From Hemileia vastatrix (lineage: Eukaryota; Basidiomycota; Pucciniomycetes; Pucciniales; Zaghouaniaceae), in the NCBI GenBank assembly GCA_030280995.1, contig JASXTE010000004.1:19173185-19237184 (forward strand): a stretch of DNA of 64,000 nucleotides, read 5' to 3'. The notes below the pieces were generated by a model that saw only the letters and a program-made list of their open reading frames with translations, was not told where the DNA came from and searched no databases. The position numbers were made by a program, and so were the translations under genes. Of this stretch, positions 16,431-62,727 are shown piece by piece. Every line of letters begins with the position of its first letter. Position 1 is the stretch's first letter.

Positions 16431-16449
16431 TTGGATTGGAGCGTGATTG

Positions 16450-30159: not shown

Positions 30160-30203
30160 CACCATGGGAAATCTAGGGGTGAATCGCTAGCAATCCCCTC
30201 TCC
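30160..30203 (+). repeat. Left terminal inverted repeat of the giant transposon
   Basis: Begins CACCATGGGAAATCTAGGGG, then TGAATCGCTAGCAATCC, a near-palindrome centred on GCTAGC. Pairs with 54796-54839. Confidence 0.88.
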
Positions 30204-31077
30204 TGAAATTTAGAGTGTCCCTTAATTATGCCAGGTTTATGAATACTTTATAAACATAAGTAAATTAGAGTTAGATTTACATTTATTCTCAGATTGGTCC
30301 AAAAATGAACCTCAACTGATCTCAAGTTATGCATAAGTTGATCAACTATAACAATGATTCTATCCTTCATTGAGCACACATTGATCCAACATAAGCTTTT
30401 GAATATACAATATTTTTATCAATTTAGAGGAAGAAAATTATTCTTTAACATACCTAATCATTACTTTGCATTCAAAAGATAAACCATAAAATTATGAAAG
30501 TAAATTTAATTTACAATAATAATATCTTTTACTACATAATTGTAACAATAAATAAATTTAGCAAATTTTTTGATCACAAATATTAATAACTATAGGAATT
30601 GAAATAACTAATGCCATTCCTATTTTCAAATTTTAAAAAGATTATAGTCACTTCTCACTTCTAATCTGTTAAGTCTTTGCAAAACTAAATTTTGTATACT
30701 TTTTTAAATTTTACCAAAAATATAAGACCTACAGGCTATTGAAAATAAAATCTTCAGTTACTCAACTAAAAGAAATATTTATATTTAAATAAAAATAAAA
30801 ATAGTCCTTAAAGTGTATAACATGAAAGGTTTTTATGGAAATTAATATGCAAGTTTTCCTTTTTAAATATTTAATGCTTATATAAATCACTTTCCCAAGT
30901 TTTGGTATGAGTACATGTGAAATAGTAACTGCATTTAAAAGTGGAAACCAATATAATGACAAAAATATTTACAAAATTTATTTCAATTTAATATTTATCT
31001 GTAAAAAATTTTGAAAGTATTATTTTATTCATCTTCTTAAGGATCTCTTCCTCCTCCTCTACCCATCTACTTTTTAA
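30204..31077. other. Subterminal region of the giant transposon
   Basis: AT-rich, no gene. CTCAA/TGATC-containing words recur near 30310-30390 (CTCAACTGATCTCAAGTT, TTGATCAACT, ATTGATCCAAC), reminiscent of the subterminal repeats on the right side. Confidence 0.45.
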
Positions 31078-31079
31078 TA

Positions 31080-34000
31080 GGGGGTCTCAAACTTGAACAA
31101 ATATGCCTGGTGGATTTCATTTGAAAACCACCACATAAACACACCATGAAACATGGCTGATTTGTTACATGTGATTATAAACATGGGGTCAAATATGTCC
31201 TACTTTAGTGAAAATTTTCCAACCACAGCACAGATCCTCCCAATTCACCACACATCACATCTTTCCCAACCCACTTTTTTGACACAAATTTTTACACATG
31301 GTGCCCCAGTAAATTTTGACCTTTTCATTACTTTCTTTATCAACAATTCCTGAACAAATTTATATCCTCAAAACTCAGTCATCATGCCAAGAACACTACA
31401 AAATTGTCAACACAACCCTTTTAAATCCTTTTTTCATGCTTTAAAAATGATCAAGTTGCATGTACTTTCCACTTTGTTTTGTTGTATTTTTGCATATTAA
31501 CTTTTATTTTGAATTTTCACTGAAAGCATAATTTTTCCCTTCTTGATTCATTTTGGTTAATCATCTCAACATGATGTTGGATATTTCAGAAATTGCATAA
31601 TTTTTCATTCTTTCTGTTTTTCAATGATCTCTCATATCCTTTTATTCATCTTCTCTCACTTCCTTAACTCTTCTTCTATTTTTTTTATCCATCACTTCCT
31701 GAACTTCTATCTGGTCCTTTTGCATCTTTGAAGACATCTCATCAGGTAAGTCATCCTCCCACCATCTTTTCTTCAATTTTAACTGAAGTTCTTTTTCTGA
31801 ATTTTTTTTTCTATTTCTTTTTTTGTTTTCTCAAATCACATTTCCACTTTTAAGAAGGTTCTACAGAAGCCAAGCTCTCATATCCACCAAGCAACATCTG
31901 ATTTGGCTCACTGGTTAATGAGATATTTATTATTTACTTGGCTCAAACTTCCATCAACTTTATTTTAATCTTCTCAAGTAGGTCTTACTCTGGAACAAAT
32001 ATAATACTTATAAATAAAATAGGTAGATAAAATAGATCTTTTTAGACCATTGATAATACCTGACTTTAATTTTTATAACCCTTTTTTTGATTTTCTTTCA
32101 AGTCAAAAATAAACGGTCAGAAATAGGATTGGGGTTTTTTTAAATGAAATATACTTTTTTAGGAAGAATCTCAACAATCATTTATTTTATTTTCAGCAAA
32201 TGGTGTTGAATTTGGTCTAGTGGTTGCTGAGATAACTTCTTCCAAAGTTGAATCTTGTTTCATAGACTAATTTACATTTTTTAAATTCAATGTTGCACAA
32301 TATGCATATAAGGCTTATGCAATCTATTTCAAATAATACTTCAGGATTTTGGCTCTGATTTGATCAGCTAAATATAAGTTTTGGATGAGTCCTTCCTATT
32401 TTTTAATTTTTTTATGAGGATGAATATTAACATTTGATGAATTTTAGCTCATTCAAATCTCACATTATTTTGATTACAGGCTCTCTATAGGCATGAATTT
32501 CATTTTCAGAAAGCATAATCAATTTCGGCTCAGAAATTTCTATGATATCTACTTTTAAAGTTGAGTCTTTTTATGTAAACTAATTTAAATTTTTGAATTT
32601 TGATATTCTGTATTATGCATGTTTTTTCTGATACTTTTCATTGTACCACTCCAAAGGTATGTCTATTCCTCAACTGTTTTTTATCATTTGTTTCCTCAAT
32701 TTTTCTTCTTTATAAATCATTTTTTTCCCTGATTTGTTGATGTTTTGGATTTTTTTCAGGAGATGGTATCATCAAATTTATTTGGAACTCTTCTCAGCAT
32801 AATCATCAATCAAAAATGCAAGAGATAAACATCAAACTACCAAGGAAATTCCTGGTTTGATATCTTGTAAAAATTTTTCTCATTTTTTCGGAATCTTGTG
32901 AAGCACTTACTCATTTTTGTTTTTCATTCCAGATCAACCAAAGTCTGATAAACCAAGTAAGTAAAGCAAGGGGGAAGGGCCCTATTTATAGTAAATCTTT
33001 AGGGAGGGGTTCCAAATAGGGTAATTAGAAGATTTTCCATTTTTTTCTTTTATTTCATAAATTTTTAAATTATCAATTAATAAATATAATCAATCAAATA
33101 AAACGTTTGTGCAATTGAGCCTTGTTGCTGTCTAAATTTGTTCATTTAATTATTTATTTGTATTGAATGGATGAATTGTCAATAAATTGCTTGTCATATG
33201 ATTTATTTGGCTTTGGTCACATCTGAAAACATTAGCAGGTGGAATTGTGAATCCCATTACTTTTACTTGGCTGATTATATTTTTTTAATGATTTACATAA
33301 GAATTTATGAAATTAAAAATGAAAATTTGGTAATCTTTACCCCCTCCCACAGTAAGTTGCAGGGGGAGGTATTGTAAATTTTTTTTTCTTACATAAATAT
33401 TTTTTTTGACATGAAAAAAAATGGCAATCTCCACCCCCTCCCACAGTAAAATTCAGGATGAGGTATTGCCATTTTTTTTTTCAGACATAAAAAATTTTTG
33501 ACATGAAAAAAATGGCGATCACCACCCCCTAATATAGTGAAATGCAGGGGAGGGTATTGCCAAATTTCTAGATTTAGAAAAATAAAATTTGTTAATTTAT
33601 GTATCTTGTGCATAAGGGTTGGTTAATGAAGCTGTTGAAAAACCATATTTAACCAAATTATTAATAGAAATCCAGAATGAATTTTAGTCAAGTAGATATG
33701 GAGAAAAACATTACTTATAATTTTAATACAAAACATTTAATTAACTGGAATCCTAAAAAATAGCAAGAGTAGAAGCATGCAATGTATATAAGAGAGATTC
33801 AAAGCATTTTTTTACAATCAAAATATTTATTTCCATCTCTGATCTGGAAGAGATTTTCAAGATGGGTAAATGTGCCACCATTTCAATTTGAACTAAAATG
33901 ACAAAGTGCAACACAGATTTGAATAGGAGGATCTCTATATGAACAACAAGAATCATTTCTGAAAATTGAGTGATATTTTATCAGTTCAAGTAACTGAGAA

Positions 34001-34583
34001 ATCCAGGCAAGGTTGTGCAAAATATCTGTTTAAAGCTAATTTAAGGAATGCTTAAAATAACCTCAAGGTTAAATTGTGGTTGGTGTTGTATGGAAAGTGT
34101 TCTGGAATATAAGTAGTGATTCTTCAGCATGTCACACATGTAAGCCTAGTGAATTTCAGCATTGGAGTTGGTATCTGAGTTAACCAATAGATCCAGGGCT
34201 AGAGTGGTAGCAGTTATTTCTAGTTTACAATGGACTGAAAGAGGAATTTTGTGAATGGTGATGAAGACTAAGGGTGAGTGTATGATGAAGTGGCTGCTTA
34301 AGTGGTGGGAAGTCATGTTCTTCACATGTTGAATAATAAGCCCTTAAGAATTAGGCGGAAAAGAATCTAAAGAGATGGCTTGTCTGTACCTATTGCTGAA
34401 TAATCAAGATGAAAGTGAAAAGTGTTTTGATGGCTTTTTTTACCAAAAGAAGGTGTGTTTGAGGTGAAACACACCATCAAAATACACCTGTCCAGGGCAG
34501 GTGTATTTCAGTTTCTGATGGTATGTTTGTTACTTTTTTTGTGGTGTGTTTATGTGGCGTATTTGATCAAGTTTGAGATGCCC
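31080..34583. mobile_element. Non-autonomous 3.5 kb DNA element nested in the giant transposon
   Basis: Imperfect inverted ends of about 28 bases (24 matching): left GGGGGTCTCAAACTTG, right inverse GGGCATCTCAAACTTG. TA flanks both ends (31078-31079, 34584-34585). Hairpin sequences lie just inside each end (TGGTGG...CCACCA at about 31110-31132; AATACACCTG...CAGGTGTATT at about 34484-34512). No coding sequence was recognised inside. Confidence 0.6.
33329..33567. repeat. Three tandem hairpin repeats
   Basis: Three copies of an ~80-90 base unit, each an inverted repeat of the form GGCAATC-CACCCCCTCCC...GGGGAGGTATTGCC with a short loop (AGTAAAATTCA type). They are separated by A/T-rich CATGAAAAAAATGG sequence. 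Located inside the 3.5 kb element. Confidence 0.7.
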
Positions 34584-34794: not shown

Positions 34795-36230
34795 GGAGCC
34801 TAGCTTGTAGTAATTTGAAAATGCATAAAAAAATAAACCGAGCCACAGGAAGTGACTTAGGTTTGAAAGTAAAATAGAATATTTTGCTACCAGCTTTGTA
34901 AGCTGGCAGCGCTTATTGTAACATAAAAAAAAATTGACCAAAGCCACTAAAAGTGGCTTTGGTCAATTTAATAATACATCTTGAAGGCAGTTTAAAACTG
35001 CCTGCAAGATGTTGTGTTTAAAAGTGAGCGTAGTTGCATGTAGCAACTTCGCTCACCTTTTTTTTTACATTATTGACTTGCAGCCAGGAATAAACTGGCT
35101 GCAAGTGAATTAATAAAGTAACCAAAGTCGCTTGTAGCGACTTTGGTTGCAAGCTCATTTTTGCACCCCCCAGCAAGATAACACTGGCTGGGAGGTTGTA
35201 GGTAAGGTTTAAGCAGCCAATTTGCTTAAGGAAAATTGGCTGCTTAAAACATAAACTACCAGCCAGGCTCCCCCTGGCTGGTAGTAATTTATAATTACAT
35301 AAAAAAAAAGAACCTGAGCCACAGGAAGTGGCTTGGGATTGAAAAAAAAAAAATTTTCTGCCAGCTATAAGCTGGCAGCGTTTAATTAAAAATAAAAAAA
35401 AAATTGGCCAAAGCCACTAAAAGTGGCTTTGGCCAATTTTATAATACATCTTGCAGGCAGTTTAAAACTGCCTGCAAGATTTTGTGTTTAAAAGCAAGCA
35501 AAGTTGCATGCAGCAACTTTACTTGCTTTTTTTTTATATTAATGACTTGCAGCCAGTGTAAACCTGGCTGCAAGTCTTTTTTTAAAGCAAGCAAAGTCGC
35601 TACAAGCAACTTTGGCTGCAATAACTTTTTTTTCATCTCCCAGCCAGATACCACTGGCTGGGAGGTTTTAAGGAGATTGAGCAGTTAATGTTGCTTTAAG
35701 CAACATTGGCTGCTTAAAACATAAACTACCAGTCAGGGGGAGCCTGGCTGGTAGTAATTTATAATTACATAAAAAAAAAGAACCCAAGCCACAGGAAGTG
35801 GCTTGGGATTGAAATAAAGAAAAAAAATTGTTTCCAGCTTTAAGCTGGCAGCGTTTAATAAAAAAAAAATTGGCCGAAGCCACTAAAAGTGGCTTTGGCC
35901 AATTTTATAATACATCTTTCAGGCATTTTAAAACTGCCTGTAAGATTTTGTGTTTAAAAGTGAGCGAAGTTGCATGCAGCAACTTCGCTCACTTTTTTTT
36001 TTATATTATTGACTTGCAGCCAGTTATAAACTGGCTGCAAGTCATTTAATAAAGCAACCAAAGCTGCTTGCAGCGACTTTGGTTGCAAACTGTTTTTGCA
36101 TCTCTCAGCCAGATAACACTGGCTGGGAGGTTTGATGGTGAGATTTGAGCAGCCAATGTTGCTTATAGGAACATTGGCTACTATAAAAATAAACTACCAG
36201 TCAGGGCGAGCCTGGCTGGTTTGAATTAAT
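34795..36230. repeat. Hairpin array: three ~470 base units with about ten stem-loops each
   Basis: Units start at about 34836, 35311 and 35781, each led by GAGCCACAGGAAGTGGCT or a variant; a partial unit precedes. In order the stems are CCAGCT..AGCTGG, TTGGCCAAAGCCACT, CTTGCAGGCAGTTT, GTGAGCGAAGTTGC, GACTTGCAGCCAG, GCAACCAAAGTCGC, CTCCCAGCCAG, AGCAGCCAAT and TACCAGCCAGG, each followed by its inverse after a 1-8 base loop. Stems differ between units by paired changes, for example TTGACC/GGTCAA in the first against TTGGCC/GGCCAA in the others. T or A tracts separate the hairpins. No protein coding. Confidence 0.85.
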
Positions 36231-38050
36231 AAGAAATAAGATGAAAGTTGATATACATTTAAATTTGCGCTACTCTTTTACATGCCATTTGCCATTAGTT
36301 TTTTGACAGTGTGAAACGTATATGTGCATAATAAAAAATCAAAGCCAAAAAAAGAGGTATTGGATATTTTTAAATGCCAAAACTTATACGCCCAGTTTTA
36401 AAATGTTTGAAATATCAGAATACTGATTTTGTGTGTAGATTGTTTTTCAGAAATGCATACTTGGTTGTTAACTCTTTTGTAGCCAAATGTCAACTTAGTA
36501 GCAAAAAAAATAATAAGTGATAAAAAATGGGTCCATAACATCTGAAGGTTAGTTTTCCAACCTTATGTGAACAAATAATATGGATAAGTGGATTGATTTC
36601 GTAAAATAAGTGAATGTAAATATTAATTGCATCCGTGTTAAACTATCCGAGGCTTTGGCTCCTCAAATTATACTTTGTGAAACCCTATAAAAATAAGCTG
36701 TAAAAACAATATGTAAGTTTTAATTAAAAGCATGTGAAAGTGTTTAGTCATCATTTGTACAATATATTGCTGTGTAAAAACCTTTTGCATATACGCCTTA
36801 TGCAAGTCACTGCATGCCATGCAACCGGCTTCAGTAACTTGCATGTTTCTATACGCATAACTGTATGCAAATTTTCATCCGAGTGGCAAATTTTCTACTT
36901 CTCTCCTTCAACTTAAAAGAGACAGGTTATTATAATAATTAGCTTTCCATCTGTTTCACTTAAGAGTTTTTTATTTTGGTTTGTCCCTTATACTTGTTTC
37001 TTAAGTAAAAATATTAATTTCACTTTAAATATAAGTTCAACTTTTAGGGAATCCATTTTTCTCCATCATTAGGTTTGCCACCAAAGTAACTTGTTTACAG
37101 ATTACTAACTTGGATTTTTGGTATTTTACTCTCCTTTTTAATCTCTTTAAAAAATAAAAAAAATATAACTGATGATTGTTTTTAACTCTTGGCAGCTTGA
37201 TCTCTAACTTGTCATAGTATCATCAAAAAGCTAATTTTTGGTTAGCATCCAAATTTTATTTTGGTTTGTCTTTCTCTTTTTATTTTTTTCATTCAATAAA
37301 AATGATACTTATTTTTCTACAATAATCTATTCATAAAATTTATAATTAACAGATTATTTGTCCATTTATCGATCAATCAACTCCTACCAAATGTTTTTTT
37401 TTCAATTTCAAGTAGGAATATCTTTTTTTCACTATTTCATTTTTAAAGTTTTTATTATTCTCAATCATTATATATTAAATAATTAAATAAAATAAAATAT
37501 CATAGTATCCACATGTGTATGTGATCAATTTTTTTCTACATATCAATAATTTATTGTATTGGCCTCCTGTAATTCTATTAATGGTAGAGGTATAGTTGAT
37601 TCTTGTTTATGGAAACTATACCTTTTAACATTATAAATTATGGATATCTGGAGGTTTGATATATTATTGATATATGGAGAAAAATTAAATAAAGCATCAA
37701 CAGATACTTATGTATTATTGCTGTATTTATCATAATAATTGGGCATTGGATTTAAGCTTCACATTTAATTGTTTATGTTTAGGGTATAGTTGAATCTTGT
37801 GTGCCAAATGCATATGGCAGAATACTATACTTGTAAGAAATAAAATGCAGCTTTAATTCCAAATACTTGATTAATATTTTATATGCATCTAATACTCATG
37901 TTTTCTTCATGCATGTTGGATATGATTTTTTATTTAATATTAAGAATATAATGATTATTTTTAGAGGCCTTATTTTTAACCATTGCATTATTTTGCACTT
38001 TTTTTATTTATTTTTAAATTAAATTAATTTCTTATTTATGACACTACAAG
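36231..38050. other. AT-rich spacer in the giant transposon
   Basis: About 1.8 kb with many stops in all frames; no gene, inverted ends or repeat recognised. Confidence 0.4.
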
Positions 38051-39366
38051 ATGCAGGCTTCACAAAGTTTGTTTATAAAGAAAAATCACCACCGAGGAAA
38101 AAAATCAAACAGCAAGCATGTGAAAAACATTGAGAATGCATTCATTATGGTTGAGAATTATGGTGTTGAGACAGATGGAAAGAGGGCAAAATATTTTTCT
38201 AGGAGTTTTGTAAAAAATTTAGTTAATCCAGAACGGTATTTGATTTCAAATTCTAGCTGTTATATTTGCCATCCAATCCGCTCCTCAATTCCAAGTATTA
38301 TAGTGAAAACATTTTCTACTGAAGATCTCATTTGATTAAACATGCTTGAAGCAACAATTCAGTGCATCAAAGACTTTTCGTATTGTGAACATTGAGTTTT
38401 GCAAAATAAAGCTCATAAAAATGGTGGTGGATTTGGTAATATGTTTGTTGGTGGTAGGTGTTTAGATAGGAAAAAGTCTATTAATTTGTAAGTATTATAT
38501 AGTTTTATTTATGAATAGTTTTAATCTATTATTATTTTAATTACTTTTATAGGTAAATATGCTTCTAAGACCTAAGATTTGGCAGAGTATGATCATTGCA
38601 TGAAGCGAATAGAGTTATTCTTTAAATTTTTTTATCAAAATATATCTAATGTTAAGTATCAAGAAGCAGTAAAACTCTGTCAAAAGCTTGGGATTCCTGG
38701 GTTTGAAGAAAATTTTAACAATGAAGAAATTGAACCATTTTCTGGCAATGTTACTTGGACAACAGGCTCAAATGGAAACGGGTTTTCAAATAGTTCTCAC
38801 TGTGACTCAGACAGTAGCAAGTATACATTTGGACTTTTCATACCTAAAGACACTGAGAAAAATTCTCTTCATCAATCTTATGACTCAAATCAACAACGTC
38901 AAAAAGGCGGAGAGCTTCATTTTCCTGAAATAGCTTGCAAAGTAGACATGGAGGCCACAAATGGCATCTCAGCAATCCTATGGCCAGCAAACCTTCTTAA
39001 ACATTTCACTTCACAATGTTATGAAATTGGTGGATTCACTCTCCTTGGCTCTTCTATTCAAGTTAGTACAAGACTTTTAAATACATTTAAAAAACTCCAA
39101 GAGTTTGAAATACATATTTCTGAGTACTTAAATATAAATGAAGAGTTAGAAAGATGTAATTTTCTTATGATGAAACTTTCTAAGTACAATGAAAAGACTG
39201 ATTTGACAAAAAAAAAGAAAGTTAGTGAATCACTATATATTTAATGTTACCAAAGATATTGAAAAATTAAATGCAGAAAATGATTCTGATATACATGTTA
39301 ATAAAAAAAGTAAAAGACCATTAAGTAGTGATAGGTTAAAATGTGATTTTATTGTACAGGTATAGT
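38051..39366 (+). pseudogene. Tet/JBP-like 2OG-Fe(II) dioxygenase
   Basis: Proteins of this family oxidise methylated bases using iron and 2-oxoglutarate; in basidiomycetes they are expanded and often carried by transposons. The start MQASQSLFIKKNHHRGKKSN is basic. The core block 38579-39244 contains SSHCDSDSSKYTFGLFIP, with a His-x-Asp iron motif, and GGELHFPEIACKVDMEATNG. WPANLLKHFTS has the distal His and GSSIQVSTRLL an Arg suited to 2-oxoglutarate. An intron lies at about 38490-38550 (GTAAGT...TATAG). Two TGA codons (38333, about 38392) and a TAA just before the core break the frame, two of them explicable as CGA or CAA changes. The family match rests on these motifs. Confidence 0.72.
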
Positions 39367-40370
39367 TTTAGTTTAGTGGTAGAATGATATATTTACACAC
39401 ATGTCTATAAAAACTTTTTATGAGGCTGATGATTATGTATAATCTGGTGAAAAACCTAAAACAATAAAAGTATCAAAAAAAATGGATGTAAAAATTGAAA
39501 AACCATATTACAATAAAAAATTATCATTGCTACAAGTAAAATAAAATATAATAAAATAAAATATAAGAAACAAAATATAGCTTTGTAACTTGCTTAATTA
39601 TTGCAAACGGAAACTAAAAATAAACAATATCTTACAAATCCTTCCTAAAAGATCATATGCATCAACATAAATAGATCTGTACTATTAATATTATTTTTAA
39701 AAATATTAAAAATTTGCTAATTTTTGCAATGAGTTTTTTCTTATTAATAAATAAAGTAAAACCATGTATTATTTTATTTTTATTTAAGTAAAAATAAAAA
39801 TAAAAAATAAATTAAAGGAAAATTAAATATTAATTTTTTTCTTTGAGTCATTCATTATTTACTTTCATATCTAACTTGAATTGATTTAGTGGCATTACTC
39901 AATCTCAAATACACTGAAATTTGTACACTAGTGTGACTTGTGATTTTATTTTTTGATAAATTGAATATTTTTCATCACAAAATTATATTTTTTTGAAGCA
40001 TATAACTGCAAAAGTAGAATTGAAATAATCAATAAAAGGAAATGAGATATATTGAGAATAATGAATCTATCAATAAATTTAGATCTCCAATAAAAATTAA
40101 TTCTAATTTTAAAATTTACCTTGTAGAAGAGGAATATTTAATTAATATGAATTTAAATTTCCTTGTAGATCTTCACTTAGCCTTTATCATCTATCTTTAA
40201 TTAAGGTGCAGAGTTCCAAAAGCAGAATTATATGATGATATTTCTATATATCTAATTGAATTTTTTTTTAAAATTCATAAAACCAGGTATGTAAAAAAGA
40301 AACTACTACTTCATTTTTAAGTAAATTCTATTATATTATAATAAAATATTAATAATTATGAAAGGGCTTG
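39367..40370. other. AT-rich spacer in the giant transposon
   Basis: A short Lys-rich open stretch at about 39400-39545 could be a remnant of the oxygenase tail; otherwise nothing is recognised. Confidence 0.4.
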
Positions 40371-42059
40371 TTTGGCCAAACTTGTGCTGGACACTTTGGT
40401 CATGGACAGTAACTTATTATTTCAAGGAAATTAAAAAAAATTAGGATATAACATGAACATATTTTATGGCATCTATTTTTTTTTTTTGGTAAAAGTGTCC
40501 AGCACAAGTTTGGCCGAACTTGTGCTGGACACTTTTATGAGGAACACCTCACTTCTCTTAAAATAACATACACCTCACCAACTTCAAATTATAAAAGTGT
40601 CCAGCATAAGTTCGGCCGAACTTGTGCTGGACACTTTGGCCAAGAACAGTGACTAAAAACTGCAAGGAAAACCAATAAAAATAGCCCATATAATGAAGAT
40701 AATTGATGCTATCTAATGTCTTTGGTAAAAGTGTCCAGCACAAGTTCGGCCAAACTTGTGCTGGACACTTTTATAAGGAAAACCTCACTACTCTTAAAAA
40801 ATCATGCACCTTACCAACTTCAAATTATAAAAGTGTCCAGCATAAGTTTGGCCAAACTTGTGCTGGACACTTTGGTCATGGACAGTAACTTATTAATTCA
40901 AGGAAATTTAAAAAAATTAGGCTTTAAAATGAACATATTTGATAGCATCATTTTTTTTTTTTGGTAAAAGTGTCCATCACAAGATCGCCCAAACTTGTGC
41001 TGGACACTGTTATGAGGAACACCTCACTTCTCTTAAAAAAACATACACCTCACCAACTTCAAATTGGAAAAGTGTCCAGCATAAGTTTGGCGGAACTTGT
41101 GCTGGACACTTTTACCAAAAAAAATATTAATGCCATCAATTAACTTCCTTTTATAGCCTATTGATTTTTGGTTTTCCTTGCAATTTTTGTCACTGGTCTT
41201 GGCCAAAGTGTCCAGCATAAGTTCGGCCAAACTTGTGCTGGACACTTTCTTCATGGACAGTAACTTATTACTTCAAGGAAAATAAAAAAAATTAGGCTAT
41301 AAAATGAACATATTTGATAGCATCATTTTTTTTTTTTTGGTAAAAGTGTCCATCACAAGATCGCCCAAACTTGTGCTGGACACTGTTATGAGGAACACCT
41401 CACTTCTCTTAAAAAAACATACACCTCACCAACTTCAAATTGGAAAAGTGTCCAGCATAAGTTTGGCCGAACTTGTGCTGGACACTTTTACCAAAAAAAA
41501 AATTGATGCCATCAATTAACTTCCTTTTATAGCCTATTGATTTTTGGTTTTCCTTGCAATTTTTGTCACTGGTCTTGGCCAAAGTGTCCAGCATAAGTTC
41601 TGCCAAACTTGTGCTGGACACTTTTCCAATTTGAATTTGGTAAGGTGCATGTTTTTTTAAGAGAAGTGAGGTGTTCCTCATAAAAGTGTCCGAACTTGTG
41701 CTGGACACTTTGGTCATGGACAGTAACTTATTACTTCAAGGAAATTAAAAAAAATTAGGCTATAACATGAACATATTTGATGGCATCTATTTTTTTTTTT
41801 GGTAAAAGTGTCCATCACAAGTTCGGCCGAACTTGTGCTGGACACTTTTATGAGGAACACCTCACTTCTCTTAAAAAAACATACACCTTACCAACTTCAG
41901 ATTGGAAAAGTGTCCAGCATAAGTTCGGCCGAGCTTGTTCTGGACACTTTTACCAAAAAACAATTTGATGCCATTAATTAACTTCCTTTTATAGCCTATT
42001 GATTTTTGGTTTTCCTTGCAATTTTTAGTCACTGGTCTTGGCCAAAGTGTCCAGCACAA
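40371..42059. repeat. Array of 13 long palindromes with alternating spacers
   Basis: The palindrome arm is AAAAGTGTCCAGCACAAGTT, the centre CGGCCG or TGGCCA, then the inverse arm, about 46 bases with no loop. Copies lie at about 40491, 40593, 40727, 40829, 40966, 41068, 41205, 41342, 41444, 41581, 41682 (centre deleted), 41804 and 41906. Half-copies close the array at 40371-40399 and 42044-42059. Spacers alternate between a short type (~56 bases, CACCTCACTTCTCTTAAAA) and a long type (~90 bases, GGACAGTAACTTATTA or its relative). Some spacers are inverted. It is equivalent to abutting miniature elements joined end to end. Confidence 0.88.
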
Positions 42060-42804
42060 TACTTAAATTCTACTGAAGTATGTTTATCAATTACATGTTA
42101 TTAAAGCCTCTTTTACTTTTTTAAGGCATGAAAACCAAATATAAATTGATGATTTTTTGGTTTTTAATTATTAATAATTTTCAATTATTGTTGCAAAAAG
42201 TGAAGTTTAAAAAAAAAAATTCTTAAGATCCTTGTGTAAACAAATTCCCATTGTTTGAATGCTTTAATTGTTTGTATATATTTTGTTTATTAACTATGGT
42301 AATGGATTTTTGAGTGCCTTTAATGATCTTTCTATTTTGGTGAGGGATGGTGTTCACTTTCATTTTTTTTTCACATGTGAATTTTTATACTAATCATTGG
42401 TGGGGTTTAGCCAATAAAAAAGCAATTATAATTATTGAAAAACAGGTATTTTTAATTGAAATTTAGAGTCTAATTCTATTCTTGTTTTAGGCTTTAATTT
42501 GATCTTGTCGTAAGTATCTGAGAAGAGATTCAATTTAATTTATTTTAAGTTCATTTTTTGTGCATAAAAAAATTTCACATTTATTTAATCAAAAAGTTTA
42601 TCATGTCATAAATTTTTACAAAAATATATATCTGTTTTTCTATCCTCAATAATTTTAAAATCGTTAATTCTTTTGCTCTCATTTATCTTATACATCAATT
42701 GGAATTTTTTACAAGAAAGAATAATAATTTTATATTTAAAAAATAATTACTATCACTCTATATACATGGTTACCGGTGGGGTAAAAAATTTAAGGTGCTG
42801 CTGC
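42060..42804. other. AT-rich spacer in the giant transposon
   Basis: No gene or repeat recognised between the palindrome array and the end of the next minus-strand gene. Confidence 0.4.
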
Positions 42805-45284
42805 TCAATCCAGTGCTTCATTAACTTTGGCGAAATCTATATCTTCTTGAACGTCAAGTAACTCCCTCTCATTAACCGACAAATTTGCTAAATATCCAGG
42901 TGAATAGCAGTTTTTTGGAAGAAATTTGGGCACGTTCAAGAAACCATCTTGTCACGCGCCATGTGACACTCGAGGCAAAAGTATCTCATTAAATCAATAC
43001 TAAAGGGCTCAAATCCATACTCGAAGCGCAGAAAAGCAACTCTCCATAGCAACTGCGACTTTCCTTTGTGTACTCGCTATTCAATTGCGCTAGCCTAAAA
43101 CTCTAAATCTAAATTAGTCAATCTCTCAATATTGTGTCTTAATCTTTTTCCCAATAAGCAAGGCACAGCGCAATAGTTAATATAATAGTACATTAAAAGG
43201 TTTATGAAATGTCTGTGGGTTATTAAATGGTAGTGAGCATGGACGGAATGGTTAGTGAAGGATTAAGCGGTTTACGGATGTTAGTAAGGAGGGTCCAGGT
43301 GTAACGGATATATTTTAAATGGTTTGTGGTGTGCGGAATAGTGGATGAGTATGAGGTCAATGCGAGGAGGAGTAAAGGATATAAAAGGGGCTGGGTTTTT
43401 GGTTCAACATTCCTTAGAATTAAATTATAAAACGTATTTATAGTTGATTGTGATAAAACTCTATGTGAAAATCATTATTATTGTATCTTTCTTTATTTTC
43501 TCAATAATCATATATAAATCATAAATATTTGATTGTTGAGTTTCCAACCCTTTGTGAGATCTTAAGAATTTCAATATTACCGTTCAATTATATTAGAATC
43601 CTTCTCGAACATAACTCAAAGCAGTAGTTCTTCCTTCAAGTCATCTTTGAATCACTTCCTCAAACTATCCCTCTGTGCTTCGAAGAAGTATCTGAACCTT
43701 TTATCTCACTTTCAGGAATATCCTCGACCGTGTGCGTAGGTCGTCCGGTGACACATCTGTTGAAGCTGTCTTTTTAGTTGAGCGACCATAAAGTTTCTTC
43801 ATTGAAGCCTTTTCAACATTTGAATGGGCCACCTTTTTTGTAAAGTTGTCCATTTTATCTAAAATTTCATTGAGTTTTGGATTTCTCCATCCAGGAACTA
43901 CTCTTTTAGGACGATTCTCTTCTGGATTTGGTGGGGCTTCTTCTAAATCAGACATGAGACTTGTATCATGTAAAAGTGCTACAAAGCCTGGCTGATCAAA
44001 GCACTTTTTTCTTGCATTTTTGTAGCGGTTTTTTGAAATCTAAAATCAAATCAAATTAGTAATAGACTTTCTTTAGTTATTATGCTTTGAATAAGTACCT
44101 TTTTTTGATAACACTTTATCTGTGCTCTTGATCTCTTTTCCTTTCTACTTGCCTCAATCACCTCACAGTTTTGACCAGCCACCTTTCAAATCTCCTTTCC
44201 CTTGTTGACCACCCATTGCTTGACAATGATTGATGTAAACCTGAGTTTTTCTGAATCAATATTTTTCAATGTTGAGAGCCACTTAGTACAATGGTCTGAT
44301 ACTACACTCCCCATTACTCATAGTGACTCAGAAAAATTTTAATAGTTCCAATCAAAAGCAAGTTGATGAAATCCTTTCTCTTAAAGCTCTCACTCCAAAT
44401 GCTGTTTTACAGAGATCGGTACAGCAGCTCCTGCCTTTAGTCCTCGGGGCTCAGGTGTTGAAATAAAAGTTGGTAGATGAATTTTGGAACGTAGGAATAT
44501 AGCAGTATTTGTTAAAATAAATTGACAATCAGCAGCTGAAGTTGCCTGCGGTGCGTTTTGAACCTGTTTTAATGCTGTTTCAATCGTCAATAGATTGTAC
44601 TCATGCCAATTTTTCCAATCTGTAAGTTCTTCATCTGTTGGGCCTACAGGAAACTCAGATACATTAATGGGTCCATCAAGACAGAACTTCAAAAAGTGAT
44701 AGATATTTCGGTTAACAGAATCTGAGCTCCTTGGTACATCACACCTCGTAACTATGCTTCTAACCATTTGCAAGCTTTGGTCATTTTGAAGTGACTCAGC
44801 ATCAAGTATTCTGCACTGATCAGTAGCTTGAATTATAAGAGAGGGATTAACTGCAAATTTTTGAAAATAAAAATTGGTAAACCTATTTTAAAACATAAAA
44901 GCATGTTGAAAAAGTTTACTCACCAGGTCCACTGGTACTGGCGGCTGGGTTAGTAGAAGTGGATCCCCCACCGCTTCCAAGAAACTGATTCAACAAAATA
45001 CTAGCCCAATCATTACCTACACTTTCTGCTTCCTGCTGAAAATTACCAGGTGCGGATTGACCATCTGTATTTGTGATATTAGAAGAGCAATCAGTTGATC
45101 AAATTTGGGGATCTGATGAAGACTGAGGAGGAGGTTAGGGTTTACCTGGATTTTCACTAGGTCTTTCAGGGGGAGCAGGACCCAATGGAGGCATTCTAGG
45201 ATTTTGAGGGGGAGGATTATTTTGCACTCCCACATTACTTTCTAATGGAGGATCAACCTGCATGGCATCACCAGTATTAGACAT
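42805..45284 (-). pseudogene. TnpA-position gene of the giant transposon, unrecognised
   Basis: The ATG at 45284 (MSNTGDAMQVDPPLESNVGV) opens a Pro/Gly/Ser-rich domain (PPPQNPRMPPLGPAPP). After an intron near 44840-44935 a helical block includes MVRSIVTRCDVPRSSDSVN and PTDEELTDWKNWHEYN. A KR-rich block precedes another intron near 44041-44100. The C-terminus has KRVVPGWRNPKLNEILDK. A solo long terminal repeat (42950-43753) interrupts it, and beyond the repeat the frame continues to a TGA at 42805. Some stops occur (for example near 45133 and 44395). CACTA elements commonly encode a second DNA-binding protein beside the transposase; this gene has that position. No domain is recognised. Confidence 0.55.
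42950..43753 (+). mobile_element. Solo long terminal repeat of the gypsy A family
   Basis: 804 bases, TGTCACGCGCCATGTG to GTCGTCCGGTGACA, opposite in orientation to the gypsy A repeats. A perfect CATCT duplication flanks it (42945-42949, 43754-43758). It contains GGATATAAAAGGGG at about 43378. Removing it and one CATCT restores the frame of the surrounding gene. Confidence 0.93.
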
Positions 45285-45761: not shown

Positions 45762-48700
45762 TTAATTTTTACTTACTAGTGTCTGAAGTCCATCAGCAGT
45801 GATAACATTGTACTTTATTCCAAACATTGCCCTTTGGTGCTGTAAAGTGGCGGCATGTCCAATAATTGAATCTTGATTTATCAAAATTTGTGTTGCTTTT
45901 TCTACTCTTACTAAAAGGCAATGCACTTGTGGAAATGCCTCATAGGGATCCTTTTTTGTATCTTCTGGTATAAGCTCTTTAAATGGACTAACAATTAGAT
46001 AGACTTTTTCATTATCCTCCTTTCAACTAAAAAGCTGATCAATATGCCCAAACTGACTATCTTTTCCAAAGTAGAATTCAATGGTAGAATTCCCAGGATT
46101 CTGGTCATGAGTTGTATGACGCTTTCCATGGACCACTATGCTTTCTATATTTTCAACTACCCTGTCTCCTACCTTCTCTGATGGCAACAAAGCCCGTTTA
46201 GATGTCTCTTTTCTTAAGCGTGCCCTTACCCATTTTGTAAATAGTGCCTCAGTTAAATGGAAATGTCTTTTTTTGTATTGTACTCAATTTTTTTTAATAT
46301 TAGATCCATACTGAGCATCATCTTCAGCTTCACCTAGTTCCAATACCCTAGACTTCCGATGCCAGTGCTTGAGCATGGTCCGTGGTACTTCTTCTATGTT
46401 CAATAAAAATAAATTAGCTCATTTGCATTTTTAAGCAACCAATTACCAAACTAAATACCTGGATGATGATTGTTTGGAATTTCCGATAATATACCATTAA
46501 CTCTTTCAGCAGCCCAAGTAGCCATACCTACTGGTGGACCAAAACGTTTAATGATTTCTGGAAAATGTTGAGTGAAATGAAGTTTTGGCTTAAAGCTGAT
46601 AATTTTCCAACCTTCTTCCAAGCAGTTACGATACTCCAATAGCAGTTGTTTTAATTCATCAACTTCATCCGAAGACACATTTTTTAAAGTCAAAAAGTTG
46701 GTAATTAAACTTAAAGTGGTGAGTGATTTGAGAAGATAATATTCTCTAGGTTTGTGGTCTGATGTCAGAAATGTCTTGGCTTGATTAAATTTTTCTACCC
46801 AAAGGGGGATAAGTGAAAAAGGAAAGTAAACAGTATAAAGTACATGCCACTACGCAGCTTTGAGGGAACCTGACTTTTTAGATCCTACTTTTTTTGGCAC
46901 TCGTGAAATCCAGGAAGGTTTTTTTGTTTGCTCTATTACATTCCACACTGCCTCTAGCTCAGTGGCTGACAATCATGGATTCCTAGTTCTTTCACTTTCT
47001 TTCTCTTTGCCCTTCTTTTTATCTTCCTTACTTCTAATATTCTCAACAGATGAATTATATCTATCACTTTCGGATATACTGATACTTTTTTGCCTTAAGT
47101 TATAGGTTGAATTTCAACTTCCACTTTGAGAAGCATGTTTGGAGCCAAACTCTAAGGTTTGAAAGTGATGTTCAGAATTTGATGACTTTGTCCAGCTGTT
47201 TGATCCTTCCGATTCAGCTCCTCCACTATCCATTCTAAGATATTTTTGTGACCGTCTCATTGTACTTGTATATCGTAGTCTTTTTTGCCATCCCACTGGT
47301 TCAATATTATCGACATCAGTGCTGATTAAGCTGCTTCTACGTCTTTTACATTTCTTATTTGGAAATTTATCAGAACGTGCATCATCATCTTCTCTTCTTA
47401 CATGCCAATTTGTTTCCTTTGTCAGCTTTTATTCTATGTCGATTGCGGCATTTTGTATTAGATAAAAAGTTAGACTGTGATCTTTAAGATTTCCAAGCAT
47501 GTGTGAATGCATAAAGTCAATTGAGCAATATTACGTAGGTTGCCAATATACAAGGTTATTTAGCTCGCTCCATTGAGCCCCATGACTCCTAAAAATAGAT
47601 ACCCGCTCCCAATGTGACTGGCACTTTTTCCACTTCTCTGCCCAGTGCATATGATTCTCATGATTACATAAGGAAAACTTTTCAACTTGATGCTCACCGA
47701 TTTTATCTTTTGAAATATGACAGACAGAGCAGAACTTAGTGGCTGAGTGACTTGCAAAACCAGCAATCTTTTGCATCGCTAGAATGTCTCCTATTAAAGA
47801 GTATAATGCAGCCCTTATTTTTTGGCCCTGTGGATAGTGAGGTGTTTTTTAAATAAATATGCCATCCCATAGAGTCTTTAGTTCATCAACAAGAGGCTTC
47901 AGAAGATGATTTATTTGTTCACTTGTTGGCTCAGTTGGACCAGGAATAATAGCATACAAAAATAGATTTTTGGTTTTGTATCAATCTTCTGTAGGCAAGT
48001 TCATACACACCAACAAGATATTACCCACAGATTTCTGATGACCTACAATACAATTGCCACCCGGCCTAAACCAGTCAACATATAAACTAAAAATTAAATT
48101 ACCTAGTGTTTTTGTATATCCATTGACACTTCTATTTTGAGTCGTAGAAATATCTAGAAAATTTTTCCATACAAAACCATCATATACATCTTTCATGACA
48201 TCCCTTTCCATGTTTTCTAGAAAATCATTTTTTTTCTCAATCAGCTTCTTGAATTTGATTAGTTTAAACTTTCCTGAAAGCCATTCAACCAAACTGTTGT
48301 GATGAAATGTTTTACAAGGATGGTAGATTGCTTCTTCTTGTTTGTACTTAGCCAAATACAAATTTTCATCACAATTGACAGTTTCTTCTCTCTGTTCTAA
48401 ATCTTTCAAATAGCGCTTTGAGGATGAATAAAAAGGTTGAGTACAAGATAAGATCAAAGGTTGGTGTTTGGGGATATACTCATAAAGAGCAAAGCACTTA
48501 GCACAGCATGTCTTGGTGACAAATAATGGATTGAGTTGCAATTGACTAAAAACTGTCTCTATAGAAAGGGGAATCAGGCTGATGATTCTGCTAGCATCTA
48601 GTTTGCCTATGTCACTAAGAAGTTTGAGTTTGTTGACTTCATCATGCAAAAATTTAGCACAACCTTCTTTACTTAAATGATGGATAAGAGAAAGTTTTGC

Positions 48701-49071
48701 TGCTTGCCACATTATCTTTTGGCTATAAGGCTCTTCCAAATTCAAATTGTTTGACCGTGGTAGAGATTGAATTGTTTCCAAAACAGGCTGCCCCTAAGCA
48801 AAGAAAAAAATAGAGATTAATTGAAACATAATTTCTCTTTATTTACCAAATATTAATGTCTTACAATATCTGGGATGTTGGATCCTAAGTTAGGTGAAGG
48901 GCTGGATGTACCAACCATCTGTGCTTTGCGATTTCTTTCCTCTTTATGTTTGGAGTATGACTGAGATGTTTTGAAAGCTACACCAACTTCAAAGCTTCCC
49001 AATGAGTTCTGATGCTTTCTTGATGAACATCCAAGCTCTTCACATTTAAAAATGCAAAAAAATGGTGGCAT
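45762..49071 (-). pseudogene. Tnp2-type (CACTA/EnSpm) transposase
   Basis: The start MPPFFCIFKCEELGCSSRKH at 49071 is followed by a GTAAGA...GCTTAG intron (about 48809-48867). Block 47981-48805 contains CCAKCFALYEYIP, then GNLIFSLYVDWFRPGG with a likely catalytic Asp, and VGHQKSVGNI. Block 47531-47776 has GFASHSATKFCSVCHISKDK with paired cysteines, then a HWxxKW helix. A DFMHSHMLGNLKDH motif follows near 47500. Later come FKPKLHFTQHFPEIIKRFGP and WAAERVNGILSE (46451-46693), a GT-AG intron at about 46393-46458 and a C-terminal block to about 45762. This is the layout of basidiomycete Tnp2 proteins. Several stops (47978, about 47528, about 46860) suggest an inactive copy. Confidence 0.82.
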
Positions 49072-50145: not shown

Positions 50146-51529
50146 ATGATGAGCTCTAGTTGTTCTTATCCTCCTCAGGGAAAAATACCTACTAATACCC
50201 GTGTACTAAATAAAAGATTCAATGAGATAATCCCTTGATTAACTTCTCATTTTTGCAGGTCTATTTACAATTTCTGTTGTGTGCTTTTGAATATTTCACC
50301 ACAGTCTAATGAATGGAAGCTGAACCCCACCGAAGAAAAACTACATAGGTTTTCATTGTTCAATATAAGCTCTCTCAACATTGATATTAATTTTCCATAT
50401 CCTGAACAAAATTACCGTGTTTCTGAACAAATCCCTGCTATATTCCACAATGATTTTATCCACTTTCTTCTTCAATGCAACTTTCTTGGAAAAACGTTTG
50501 CTTGGAATCTTGATTGGTTTCACAAGTGGAATCAAGTTTTGTCAAAAATTATCATTAAGCACTGGGATACGGCTTTGGAAAATAATTATTTGGTTTCTTA
50601 TTCATTGGACTCTACTCATATTTCTTACCTAAATCAAATGGGTGTTCTTCACCGCTGGTTTATAGGTTATGCTGATAAATTACGACTCGGAAAAGATTCT
50701 GATAGTTTCCGTGAAATAGTTAAAATAAGAAAGTATAAATATAAAATAAAAAAGAAATTAAGAACTAATATTTTTATCTTTTTTTTTACACAAGCTTATA
50801 TAAATTTGACAATCTTTTTCAGAATTCTTTTAACTGAACTCACCGCGCAATACGGGGGGCGGACTTGTTAGCAAGTCCGCAACCTTGGACTCAAATTCAC
50901 CACAGATTGAACACACATTGAGCTATTGACAAAGGAACCATACAATCAGGGATGAACACCACTCAGCAGAACAGTTTTTGTGGGTCTTCAAGTAGAGTTC
51001 AGTATGAGTTCAGTATGAGTTCAGTCTGAGTTCCATCTGAGTTCTGTCTGAGTTCAGGTTGGTGACTTGCTAGCAAGTCCACCCCCTATATTGCGTAGTG
51101 ACTCACCTTTTTAAACACCTTACAAGTGGTGAAACCTATGAGAATCTTTTCAAAAACGTCAAATGTTGCTCAGACACTGAAATCGATGATGAAGGTTCTT
51201 TTAAGCAGATTTTATTGCCATGGAGATCTGAAGAATTCTCAAGACTTGCACGAAATCTTGACCAGAAACACATTCAAATCCGAGAATCTTCCTCTTATTC
51301 AGGAGAAATACTCAAGAACTTGGCATTATATGATAGATTAAATTTGGTATCCTCAATCGAGACTCACTTTAATTCTTTTCCAGTCCCCAGGGGTTTGCCA
51401 AGTGACTGCTATTCTTCATTATATCTCGCTTCTCTTAATCCTAAACAATTAAGACTTCTTAATTGTCAAGCCCCGATGAACATTTCCTACATACTTGAAC
51501 AAATTTCAAATTCTAATGTGAGTTATTGA
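50146..51529 (+). CDS. Unrecognised cargo gene, interrupted by a miniature CACTA element
   Basis: A likely first exon starts MMSSSCSYPPQGKIPTNT at 50146. A long exon follows (about 50308-50720) with SNEWKLNPTEEKLHRF, FHNDFIHFLLQCNFLGKTFA and HRWFIGYADKLRL. The last block (51104-51529) has HLFKHLTSGETYENLFKNV and YSSLYLASLNPKQLRLL. Introns near 50200-50307 and 50720-50822 (TTTTTCAG acceptor) are inferred. The miniature element (50841-51100) sits just after the second acceptor; a TGA before it (CGA expected) may be a further lesion. No family recognised. It is convergent with the SNF2 gene, their frames overlapping by about 17 bases. Confidence 0.5.
50841..51100 (+). mobile_element. Miniature CACTA-type element, 260 bases
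   Basis: Ends CACCGCGCAATACGGGGGG and the inverse of CACTACGCAATATAGGGGG. ACT duplications at 50838-50840 and 51101-51103. Embedded GGACTTG(T/C)TAGCAAGTCC palindromes and GAGTTCAGTATGAGTTCAGT subterminal repeats. Inserted in the unrecognised cargo gene. Confidence 0.93.
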
Positions 51530-53940
51530 TGAATTCCCTAATCAATAATCTAGCAGACTCATATTCCTCGTTTCCAATGTTTGGGACACTTAAACTTAAA
51601 AAATTAGAACAGATAAATATTTTTAGCAATGATGCAACTTTATATAAAGAAAATTTCGCATACATTGATAGCTCAATTATTTTTCTTTGTATCTTATAAA
51701 TGCTGAATTCAATACTTCTGCTTACAAAATACTTGAGTACATGAACTTCATTTTGTTGGCCCATTCTATACTGATGATAAACTGCTTGCTGTTCAACTGC
51801 TGGATTCCAATTAGGCTCCTGTTTCAATATTTTAAACAAATTATCTTTTCAACCTTTTCTATTTCAATATAAGACTCTTTGACTTACCATTATATATACA
51901 TTTCGTGCACACCTCAAGTCTATTCCAACTCCTGCAGCCTTTATTTTACCAAGCAAAACTTGACATCATTCATCATTTTTGAATTTGTCCAGATTTTCAT
52001 CCCTTTTTTTCATGCTCAACTTTCCTACAAGCTCTGTGTAGCTAATTCCATGGTCATCTAAAGCCTTTTTTATACTGTTTCAATGGATAGAATATTGAAA
52101 TTTTGTTTAAGCTAAAAATAAGTTATTGAGATAATTAATAGAATTCCTTACATTTCCAAAAAGTCCGCATATTCTGAAAATATAACAGCCTTGGGACAAA
52201 TTATCCCCCGTTCTCCCCTTTAGAAAATTTCTAAATGACTGATTAGATGTATAATCTTTGCTGAATGTTTCCATGTGAAAGGAAATGTTGGGGTTGATAT
52301 GGGTTTTCATAGGCAGGGTGGTTACAAAATTGCTGTAAAATTGACAGTTCTCGGAGAAACTCAGCTGAGTCCAAAGGGAGGTTGGTGTTTTGAGAAGGCC
52401 TATAATACTCAGAAAAATGTTCTTGAAGCTTTGTAAGTTTTGAGTGCCAAGGTTTTGATAATTCTACAGATATTCCTTACTCAATTTTTTGAGGAAGTGA
52501 TAAGATTGCTTCTTTTGTCCTCCACAGGCATATGACATTCATGGGAGTATTTATCAATTTTATTGAGCTATAGCTTCCTCTGTTTAAGCCATTCATAAGA
52601 AAATTAATCCACAACCAGTTTTCTTGCCATCTTTCAATTCTGAGGAATGATATAAGGCTTTGAAGATCAGTTGTCCGGTTCTGAAGTGGTGTCCCTGTCA
52701 AGCATAGTCAATACTCAACCTCCAAGGCCAATATATTCTTATTCTTCTGTGACTTGGGATTCTTGATTAATCTTTTAAATTATTTTAAAAATTTCATCAG
52801 CTTTTATAATATTATGTTCAAAATTATTAGTAATTCAAATGAATGCTTACTGAGCCTCAACTAAAGCTATTCTGTACCAAATGAGTTTATGAGTTACTGG
52901 CGGAATAGGTTGAGGAGTTTTCTTTGAAGAAGATGGACTTGCTGTCTCATAGGTAGTCAAAACAACTAGTTGGTTCTGAAGCTCCTCAAAATTAATTTTC
53001 TTTGAATCCTTCCCATAAAGAACCTTGAAAGGTAGTGCATTGTCTTCAAAGTGAATTCTTATTTCATTGACCCAGTTTGATAATGTTGCAAGTGGGCAAA
53101 TAATGAGAGTTGCTGATGTCCTATATTTCTCTTGTCCACCACCCAAGAGTTGGAATCGTCTGGCTTCACTTTGAGTTGCAGTAATTAGGCCAAGAGTTGA
53201 GAGGGTCTTTCCCAAGCCCATATCATCAGCTAGAATTGAACCAATTCCTGCAGAGGATAACTTTTCTTCAAGAAATTGTTCATAATAATTATTAAAACCC
53301 ACTCTCATCCAGCTGTTGTCTGCATGCCTCCACAGGTTTTCTAACTTTTGGATAAGTTATTTTCATTGTCTATCATAAAATTGATAGCTTGAATCTGATG
53401 CGTTTTCAGAGTTGTTTTCATACCACATATAGATAGATTTGCCATTTGATTATCCCTTGTCCCAGAAATTTCAGAAGTTGTGTGAATACAAGAATGAGAA
53501 ATATTGAAGAAGACAGTTTGATTGTAGTGTGGAATCGGTGTCAAATCAATTTGAGCATTTAGAAATACTTTATTAGCCCGACTAATAAAATCAGTCAAAC
53601 AAAAAAGGAGGCCACAAATTCTATACTGCCTGTTTAATAGTAGAACCAAGTAAGAGCAAAAATAATAAGGTATTTGGGGATTTAAAGCCCTTTCCTCAGT
53701 TAAAATTTGAGATCCAGATCCAATTTCTCCAAGTAGTTGTCTAATTTGGCTTCTCTGTTTGTTAGAAAGATCACCAATAGGTTTTGCTTCTCCTTCTTTG
53801 AATAATCCAAAAACATGAACTAAAGATCTTCCTTGTTGCATAATAACTGGAGTGGATACTTCATCAAATACAGATCTTTCTTTTAGAAAAATAGGTTTAA
53901 AATTTAAAGAGAATTGTCCAATGCATCTTAAATTTGACAT
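51513..53940 (-). pseudogene. SNF2-family DNA helicase/translocase
   Basis: Remodels chromatin or moves along DNA using ATP. The start MSNLRCIGQFSLNFKPIFLK at 53940 opens an N-terminal region. Motif I is ILADDMGLGKTLSTLGLI, Ia LIICPLATLSNWVNEI. Motif II reads LVEA(H) across an intron, where DEAH is usual (Asp to Val). Motif III is CLTGTPLQNRTTDLQSL. In the C-terminal lobe GKIKAAGVGIDLRCARNVY (about 51900-51970) and PAVEQQAVYHQYRMGQ are motifs V and VI, with His replacing the usual Arg. Frame breaks lie near 53340, 52725 (TGA), 52480 and 51955. The layout resembles RAD5/RAD16-like SNF2 proteins. Exons are split over five blocks; the copy is almost certainly dead. Confidence 0.82.
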
Positions 53941-54780
53941 TTTAATTAAATGAAATTTATGGTGATGGTGGTAGTTTAAAGAAAGAGAGGGTGAGAGCAA
54001 AGTTTTGAAAGAGAATAAAGTAGAGAATATATATAATATTGGATGAATATTCAAAATTGAATTTTTCATGTATGTTAATAATTAATGTTGACTCACATTT
54101 TAATAATAACTAAATACAGATAAATAATTAAAAAAAGTGCATTATTTTAGAGCCTAAGTTTTGTGCCAATATATTAGAATTAGTTTCTTTAATAGTGTAA
54201 ATTTTTTAAAAAATAAATTACTATTTTTTCCCCTTATAAAAAATTTATATATTTTTTCTCCTACATCAAATTTTTTGAACATTGTCTTATACTTTTTTAT
54301 TCCAAGGAACAATGGGAAATTTCTATTGATAAGGGCTCAATATCAACTTTTGTCTAGAAAATTTAAAATTATGTGCAAATATTTTTACAGAGTTATATTT
54401 TTATTAATAAAATTTTTAAAAAGGACTTAAATAGTATTCTTTTTTATATATTTGCCAAAATAAAATTGATAATTGAAATAATATTCCAGACCTAGTATAC
54501 TATGTGCCATTTAAGATATTTCTACTAATATCAAACCTGACCTCCCAACATTAAATGGATCTATATATAAAATTGAATATTATAGTATGTTAAGTGTTGT
54601 GTCTCAACCATTGCTCAAATTTGTTCCAACTGATGCTCAACTTAAATCCAAAGCTCTGCTCAAGAAGGGATAAATCGAGGCTCAATTTAGGGCCAACTTT
54701 TTTTTCAAAATTTTTTCATATAATTTAAAAACAGTTTCCTAATTCTTTCAAAACATTTCCCCAAAAATTTCCCAACCTCT
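53941..54780. other. Right subterminal region of the giant transposon
   Basis: AT-rich and non-coding. At 54606-54690 the word TGCTCAA or GGCTCAA recurs about five times at 15-30 base spacing, like the subterminal binding sites of CACTA elements. Confidence 0.55.
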
Positions 54781-54795
54781 TCCTGAAAGTTTCAA

Positions 54796-54839
54796 AAAGA
54801 GCGAACTGCTAGCAGTTCACCCCCTGATTTCCCGTGGTG
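54796..54839 (-). repeat. Right terminal inverted repeat of the giant transposon
   Basis: Inverse of CACCACGGGAAATCAGGGGG then TGAACTGCTAGCAGTTC, whose GAACTGCTAGCAGTTC is a perfect palindrome. Pairs with 30160-30203. Confidence 0.88.
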
Positions 54840-62725: not shown

Positions 62726-62727
62726 AA

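Follow-up and report, generated by a model that had tools for sequence, protein, structure and literature searches.

A TET-like oxygenase and an SNF2 ATPase share a six-gene cassette in large EnSpm/CACTA-type transposons of the rust fungus Hemileia vastatrix

A 64,000-nucleotide stretch of the Hemileia vastatrix genome (the window; C121:19173185-19237184) was analyzed together with the 747.6-Mb assembly of 791 contigs from which it comes, and its positions 30160..54839 were confirmed to be a single EnSpm/CACTA-type transposon lying within a gypsy retrotransposon. The element is a decayed copy from a large autonomous-type EnSpm/CACTA family, and we lean towards the explanation that its TET-like oxygenase and SNF2 ATPase have the predicted function of an anti-silencing pair. 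Both enzyme genes belong to a six-gene cassette with the order TET-like oxygenase, acidic sixth gene, TnpA-position gene, Tnp2, TnpA-like gene, and Rad5/HLTF-related SNF2. Codon comparisons between two transposon families, in which this cassette is collinear, show the pattern of purifying selection. TET-carrying EnSpm elements of rusts are not new (Kojima 2025, PMC12730594); the SNF2 gene and the six-gene cassette apparently are.

The borders of the element are defined by the following features:

30157..30159, unstranded: target-site duplication GAT, left copy (seen in the window sequence)
30160..30203, plus strand: left terminal inverted repeat, starting CACCATGGGAAATCTAGGGG, with a hairpin core around GCTAGC (window sequence and genome matches)
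54796..54839, minus strand: right terminal inverted repeat (window sequence and genome matches)
54840..54842, unstranded: target-site duplication GAT, right copy (seen in the window sequence)

The left end reads CACCATGGGAAATCTAGGGG from 30160 and the right end, as its reverse complement, CACCACGGGAAATCAGGGGG from 54839. Matching inverted ends with a perfect GAT duplication had been described in an initial annotation of this DNA, and they are as described: the two ends share 34 of 44 bases, with 17 matches in the first 20, and GAT stands on either side. Among the 3589 CAC..GTG pairs that lie 0.5-40 kb apart in the window with a 3-bp duplication, this pair ranks third; the only two that outrank it both use the ends of a related miniature inverted-repeat transposable element (MITE), and the next-best pair reaches 14/20. 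A chance pairing of the ends was rejected on this ranking and on the sharp borders of the genome matches. When the flanks are rejoined with one GAT, the gypsy frame is open over the junction and reads KYCVISPVLISYE, and an uninterrupted gypsy relative in contig C531 (an open reading frame (ORF) of 1470 aa) has identical residues at the insertion point. The exact restoration of this frame claimed by the initial annotation holds across the junction, but stops occur farther away, and restoration by itself is weak evidence because 3 bp preserves the frame either way.

Searches of the genome with both ends, which the initial annotation had suggested as a check, recovered other full copies. For each search 40 first-look candidates were scored, out of 1799 for the left end, 1751 for the right end, and 1333 for SNF2. 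Scored matches at either end (40 per end, the window's own included) are 96-98% identical and have sharp borders. With the window excluded, 38/39 left-end matches begin within 4 bases of the equivalent of 30160, the other beginning 15 bases earlier, and 39/39 right-end matches end within 11 bases of 54839. Six further copies were taken from seven other left-end loci, chosen regardless of content, and four of them are complete: C128, C26 (70.9 Mb), C260, and C26 (30.5 Mb). These are 30.4-37.8 kb long and bear nested inserts of their own; over long stretches they align to the window at 90-97% identity, with the minimum at the tandem arrays. Copy C128 gives a family length of roughly 29 kb without nested inserts. 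Their duplications are AAT (C128), TTT (C26, 70.9 Mb), ATG (C260), and AGG (C26, 30.5 Mb). The partly retrieved C631 copy has the oxygenase region, its SNF2 and right end were located by search, and AAT stands on both sides; the C531 copy, which has another element within it, is flanked by TAT at either end. Additional end pairs, matched by hand from the scored lists, agree in C2 (TAT), C579 (TAT), and C338 (AAT; its left end is mutated and the duplication was read by eye). Altogether the 3-bp duplication is identical in 10/11 end pairs, window included, whereas two random 3-mers of the window agree with a chance of 0.023. All five complete copies, the window's among them, have CACCA..TGGTG termini, which gives the CAC..GTG inverted ends of EnSpm/CACTA elements; the literal CACTA pentamer is absent from their ends.

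Inside the element the window holds five of the six genes; the second family used for some alignments is described further below:

38042..39241, plus strand: Tet-like 2-oxoglutarate-Fe(II) (2OG-Fe(II)) oxygenase gene, homologous stretches 38096-38488 and 38585-39241 (PF20515, E 1e-21)
42799..45035, minus strand: TnpA-position gene, split by a solo long terminal repeat (LTR), with in-frame stops (alignment to the second family)
45768..48793, minus strand: Tnp2/EnSpm transposase gene, interrupted by in-frame stops; D, D, E, CxxC, and HxxxH patterns recognizable (motif patterns; second-family homologue matches PF02992)
50308..51427, plus strand: TnpA-like gene, at first called unknown, split by a MITE (homology to the TnpA-position gene)
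51516..53982, minus strand: SNF2 ATPase gene, Rad5/HLTF-related, with in-frame stops (PF00176, E 6.8e-22)

The same five genes, in identical order, are found in all five complete copies, window included. The gene content given by the initial annotation is thus upheld, and its proposed check, whether the ends of other copies flank these genes with 3-bp duplications, is passed by the four other complete copies. Because the oxygenase and SNF2 occupy the same places in five complete copies and in the second family, they are the element's own cargo and do not sit in separate younger insertions.

PF20515 is matched over its cut-off by the oxygenases of both families (second family E 2.6e-21). The window oxygenase keeps the HxD, distal H, and R motifs of TET/JBP domains, with two stops in the alignment of its first stretch (38096-38488); the R motif pattern is unmatched in the second-family oxygenase, being written differently there. 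A protein database search with the window piece returned 105 candidates, none at E<=0.001, and the second-family homologue had only two PDB matches (E 0.99 and 2.7). For the transposase, the window piece falls under the PF02992 cut-off (E 0.023), whereas the second-family homologue, an open frame of 781 aa, exceeds it (E 5.8e-14). The pattern is that of a Tnp2-type DDE transposase with C(2)C and H(3-4)H, the catalytic roles being assigned by motif alone; individual motif patterns are absent from two other copies, and a protein search gave six matches, all without a species name. The TnpA-like gene and the TnpA-position gene are distant paralogues, judging by profile and translated searches (hhalign E 2e-5, probability 77%; tblastn E 8e-7). 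Both lobes of an SNF2 ATPase are represented, PF00176 in the window piece and PF00176 plus PF00271 in the second-family exons. SNF2 lies beside the right end in 8/8 returned right-end loci, the window's own included. Among the 40 scored SNF2 places, 11 are found inward of a listed left end at a distance of up to 50 kb, and 12 at the window's spacing from a listed right end, for a union of 20 by hand count.

A complete element of a second family is nested in the C531 copy, the first family resuming after it. Its ends are alike at 38/40 bases with AAT on both sides, and in this single examined copy all six genes are present, with gene order and relative orientation preserved. The five genes that the window also has are 65-72% identical to it in DNA sequence, and the sixth gene is ~63% identical to that of the other copies. 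Approximate ratios of nonsynonymous to synonymous substitution rates (dN/dS, NG86) between the families, in comparisons that are not independent since the first-family copies are closely related, are 0.234-0.261 for SNF2, 0.189-0.230 for the oxygenase, 0.205-0.231 for the TnpA-like gene, 0.257-0.348 for the TnpA-position gene, and 0.285-0.303 for Tnp2 (five first-family copies each), and 0.255-0.286 for the sixth gene (four copies). In plain nucleotide alignments of the second family to the window, C128, and C26 (30.5 Mb), mismatches by codon position follow the order 2<1<3 in all genes present. Within the first family, by contrast, no excess of third- over first-position differences was seen among non-CpG mismatches when the window was compared with four copies over five genes, the sixth gene left out. 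Third positions there differ least in SNF2, Tnp2, and TnpA, and second positions differ least in the TnpA-like gene, where numbers are small (20, 32, and 33 mismatches). Since constraint is present between the families and not within one, it belongs to the lineages that moved, with single copies drifting. As a separate observation, the second-family element spans, at 29193-35389 of the stitched C531 sequence (ORFs L026 and L029), a gypsy retrotransposon that has long open frames.

The window copy itself is decayed and hardly autonomous. It carries two nested insertions and lacks one gene:

40369..40370, unstranded: point where all four other complete copies hold ~4.9 kb more, with the sixth gene
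42950..43753, unstranded: solo gypsy-type LTR with a CATCT duplication, within the TnpA-position gene; absent from all four other complete copies
50841..51100, unstranded: CACTA-type MITE with an ACT duplication, within the TnpA-like gene; absent at this site from all four other complete copies

The extra ~4.9 kb is 96.7-97.6% alike among the four copies, and its sixth gene is multi-exon, encodes an acidic product, and lies on the minus strand. Aligned to the second family, the window genes contain 9 stops in Tnp2, 8 in the TnpA-position gene, 6 in SNF2, 2 in the oxygenase, and none in the TnpA-like gene, counts that would include any stops inside unrecognized introns. In SNF2, residues of motifs II and VI that are still present in at least one other copy are gone, while the oxygenase motifs are kept. 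Other first-family copies also have stops (0-8 per gene), and the broken frames differ from copy to copy. The ~24.7-kb element of the initial annotation is accordingly one transposon with correctly placed borders, but a shortened and decayed copy that includes a solo LTR and a MITE.

The lineage of the SNF2 gene points to other rusts. The closest proteins among the matches listed are from Puccinia, and the N-terminal region of the element SNF2 is common to the Puccinia proteins. In a midpoint-rooted tree of 27 proteins, the two element SNF2s group with six P. triticina and P. graminis proteins (100/100), and the enclosing group of 15 rows (100/99) is rust-only among the proteins sampled. A profile of eight Puccinia relatives has Rad5 as its best solved relative (E 3.9e-75 versus 8.5e-61 for the next), and the element's own first SNF2 exon matches a Sulfolobus Rad54-family helicase (E 8.9e-7) and then Rad5 (2.2e-6). 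Scans of the second-family exons (all but the final short one) detected neither RING nor HIRAN, domains that characterize Rad5/HLTF, and neither is listed for the closest Puccinia proteins; on these exons the gene is Rad5/HLTF-related and not Rad5/HLTF proper. An origin from the DNMT5 ATPase (PMC13297926) was also considered; DNMT5 is not named in the best 60 of 88 PDB matches to the profile of eight Puccinia proteins, of which Rad5 is first, although this does not amount to a proper test. Numerous P. triticina proteins of this lineage are among the matches listed, as expected of a repeated gene; like those from P. graminis they are annotated as hypothetical, and they are possibly transposon cargo there too. 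A repeated RAD54-like ORF of Puccinia has been reported under non-transposable repeated sequences (Fellers 2013, PMC3579696) and resembles the element gene in its description, as a multi-copy SNF2/RAD54-like ORF of rusts.

Maize Spm/En works by the same CACTA scheme as the rust element, pairing TnpA with a transposase of the Tnp2 type, but Spm is not known to have an oxygenase or SNF2 gene. The nearest described systems are the TET-carrying EnSpm families of Puccinia striiformis, with relatives in other rusts, which have the same CAC..GTG ends, 3-bp duplications, EnSpm-type transposase, and TET/JBP gene (PMC12730594). SNF2 is mentioned zero times in the main text of that paper, where the six-gene cassette and the ~29-kb size were not seen either, and the present element could be a family listed in its supplement. 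No SNF2-carrying transposon of the EnSpm/TET kind appeared among the titles and abstract openings listed by open-access full-text searches, which did not list every paper found. Kyakuja, Dileera, and Zisupton (KDZ) elements are likewise fungal DNA transposons with a TET/JBP gene, but their duplications measure 7-8 bp and their transposases belong to a different group (PMC12730594), as compared to 3 bp and Tnp2 here; membership in KDZ was rejected on the length of the duplication. The element is therefore a different carrier from KDZ, as had been proposed, although not the first of its kind given the rust EnSpm elements already described. Plavaka elements (PlavakaB) share a CMCT-type transposase, 2-3 bp duplications, and in some cases TET (PMC12730594), and differ in having CATCA..TGATG ends as opposed to CACCA..TGGTG.

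We infer that anti-silencing by the oxygenase and a chromatin motor is the most likely function of the pair. In this model, Tnp2 would do the cutting and joining at the CACCA ends, which would be bound or held by one TnpA-like protein or by both, SNF2 would expose methylated, packed transposon DNA, and the oxygenase would convert 5-methylcytosine so that new copies are expressed long enough to move. Two precedents support the model without proving it: Spm TnpA activates Spm, and this activation correlates with demethylation (PMC10398659), and trypanosome JBP2 joins a TET/JBP domain and an SNF2 domain in a single protein (PMC10057400). JBP2 of kinetoplastids thus pairs the same two activities as one fused protein, whereas here they are encoded by two separate transposon genes. 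By this analogy, and more tentatively, the rust CACTA element may encode a two-enzyme anti-silencing machine, a split counterpart of JBP2 in which SNF2 would open silenced chromatin for the TET-type oxygenase, selected as a unit since before the families split and possibly since a common ancestor with Puccinia. TET genes on fungal transposons are known, although their function is described as not experimentally validated (Kojima 2025, PMC12730594). A chromatin motor beside the oxygenase, with constraint of the same order as that on the transposase, is an independent hint at work on packed, methylated DNA.

Several observations weigh against the anti-silencing model or the comparisons behind it. 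5-Methylcytosine is a putative substrate of the oxygenase. The nearest solved SNF2 relatives, Rad5 and the Sulfolobus Rad54-family helicase, are not silencing remodellers. Of the CpG sites compared between the window and each of the four copies, 59-62% correspond to TpG or CpA in the partner copy, as compared to a non-CpG transition rate of 0.012-0.015 per site. This fast decay fits deamination of methylated CpG and suggests that the copies were methylated, which speaks for the model; it also suggests that the TET gene did not prevent the decay and shows that any protection was not lasting. The entire window is CpG-poor (observed/expected 0.28), and the CpG deficit is therefore not element-specific. 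The dN/dS ratios are rough, with dS at 0.78-2.2 and YN00 failing in 20/29 comparisons. Subterminal repeats of the TnpA-binding type are not enriched, k-mers in the terminal 300 bp being no more frequent than in the control, and the C194 end pair has unequal flanks. Finally, 20/40 scored SNF2 places are near no listed end, which does not make them solitary as only 40 of ~1750 candidates were scored per end.

Alternative roles for the two enzymes were weighed against the same evidence. SNF2 might serve transposition itself, for example by clearing transposase from joined ends or in excision-gap repair, leaving only the oxygenase in anti-silencing. The position of Rad5 as best solved relative of the Puccinia profile and second for the first exon fits this role, as does the adjacency of SNF2 to the right end in all copies examined. 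It is nevertheless unlikely: rust TET-carrying EnSpm elements are presented without SNF2 in the main text of PMC12730594, so SNF2 may be dispensable for movement, and RING and HIRAN were not found in the scanned exons. Somewhat less probable still is that the oxygenase creates a hypermodified base as a new mark and is not an eraser of methylation, with SNF2 giving access as in JBP2 for base J. The union of both domains in JBP2 (PMC10057400) is in keeping with this, and other activities of rust-type TETs are not excluded in PMC12730594, but the scanned pieces match no Pfam family of glycosyltransferases or of other enzymes that would carry the modification further.

Two further explanations would deny the enzymes a shared role in the element. 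One is that they are passengers, host genes captured by chance and functionless for the transposon; in its favour, most genes of the window copy are broken. The constraint on six genes between families, set against the five-gene within-family control that has no such pattern, largely refutes this idea and leaves it highly improbable. The other, named in the initial annotation as a refuting outcome, is that oxygenase and helicase each lie in a younger insertion bounded by ends of its own; it has next to no probability. The window copy does hold two nested insertions, but these are the solo LTR and the MITE, and the unchanging place of the enzyme genes in all complete copies and the second family refutes it. 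The anti-silencing model thus continues to be preferred.

Two repeat arrays inside the element differ among copies, as seen by copy comparison:

34795..36220, unstranded: tandem array of a 470-bp unit, three times
40370..42104, unstranded: palindromic tandem array around TGTCCAGCACAAGTT..AACTTGTGCTGGACA

The MITE at 50841-51100 belongs to a CACTA-type family that is also present at 2590-3476, 13719-13969, 14731-14980, and 62465-62726, whose ends resemble CACCACGCAATATGGGGG and which has a TTGCTAGCAA hairpin; the hairpin core is also present in the ends of both large transposon families. An 887-bp MITE of this kind, 99% like 2590-3476, lies in copy C26 (70.9 Mb) at a different point nearby. A gypsy element at 17141-25628 has LTRs that are 90% alike, to which the solo LTR at 42950-43753 is 78-80% alike. 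Elsewhere in the window, ORFs at 3914-4249 and 6407-6916 resemble Tc1/mariner DDE transposases by eye, and Copia-like pol fragments, also recognized by eye, lie on the minus strand at 12568-16500.

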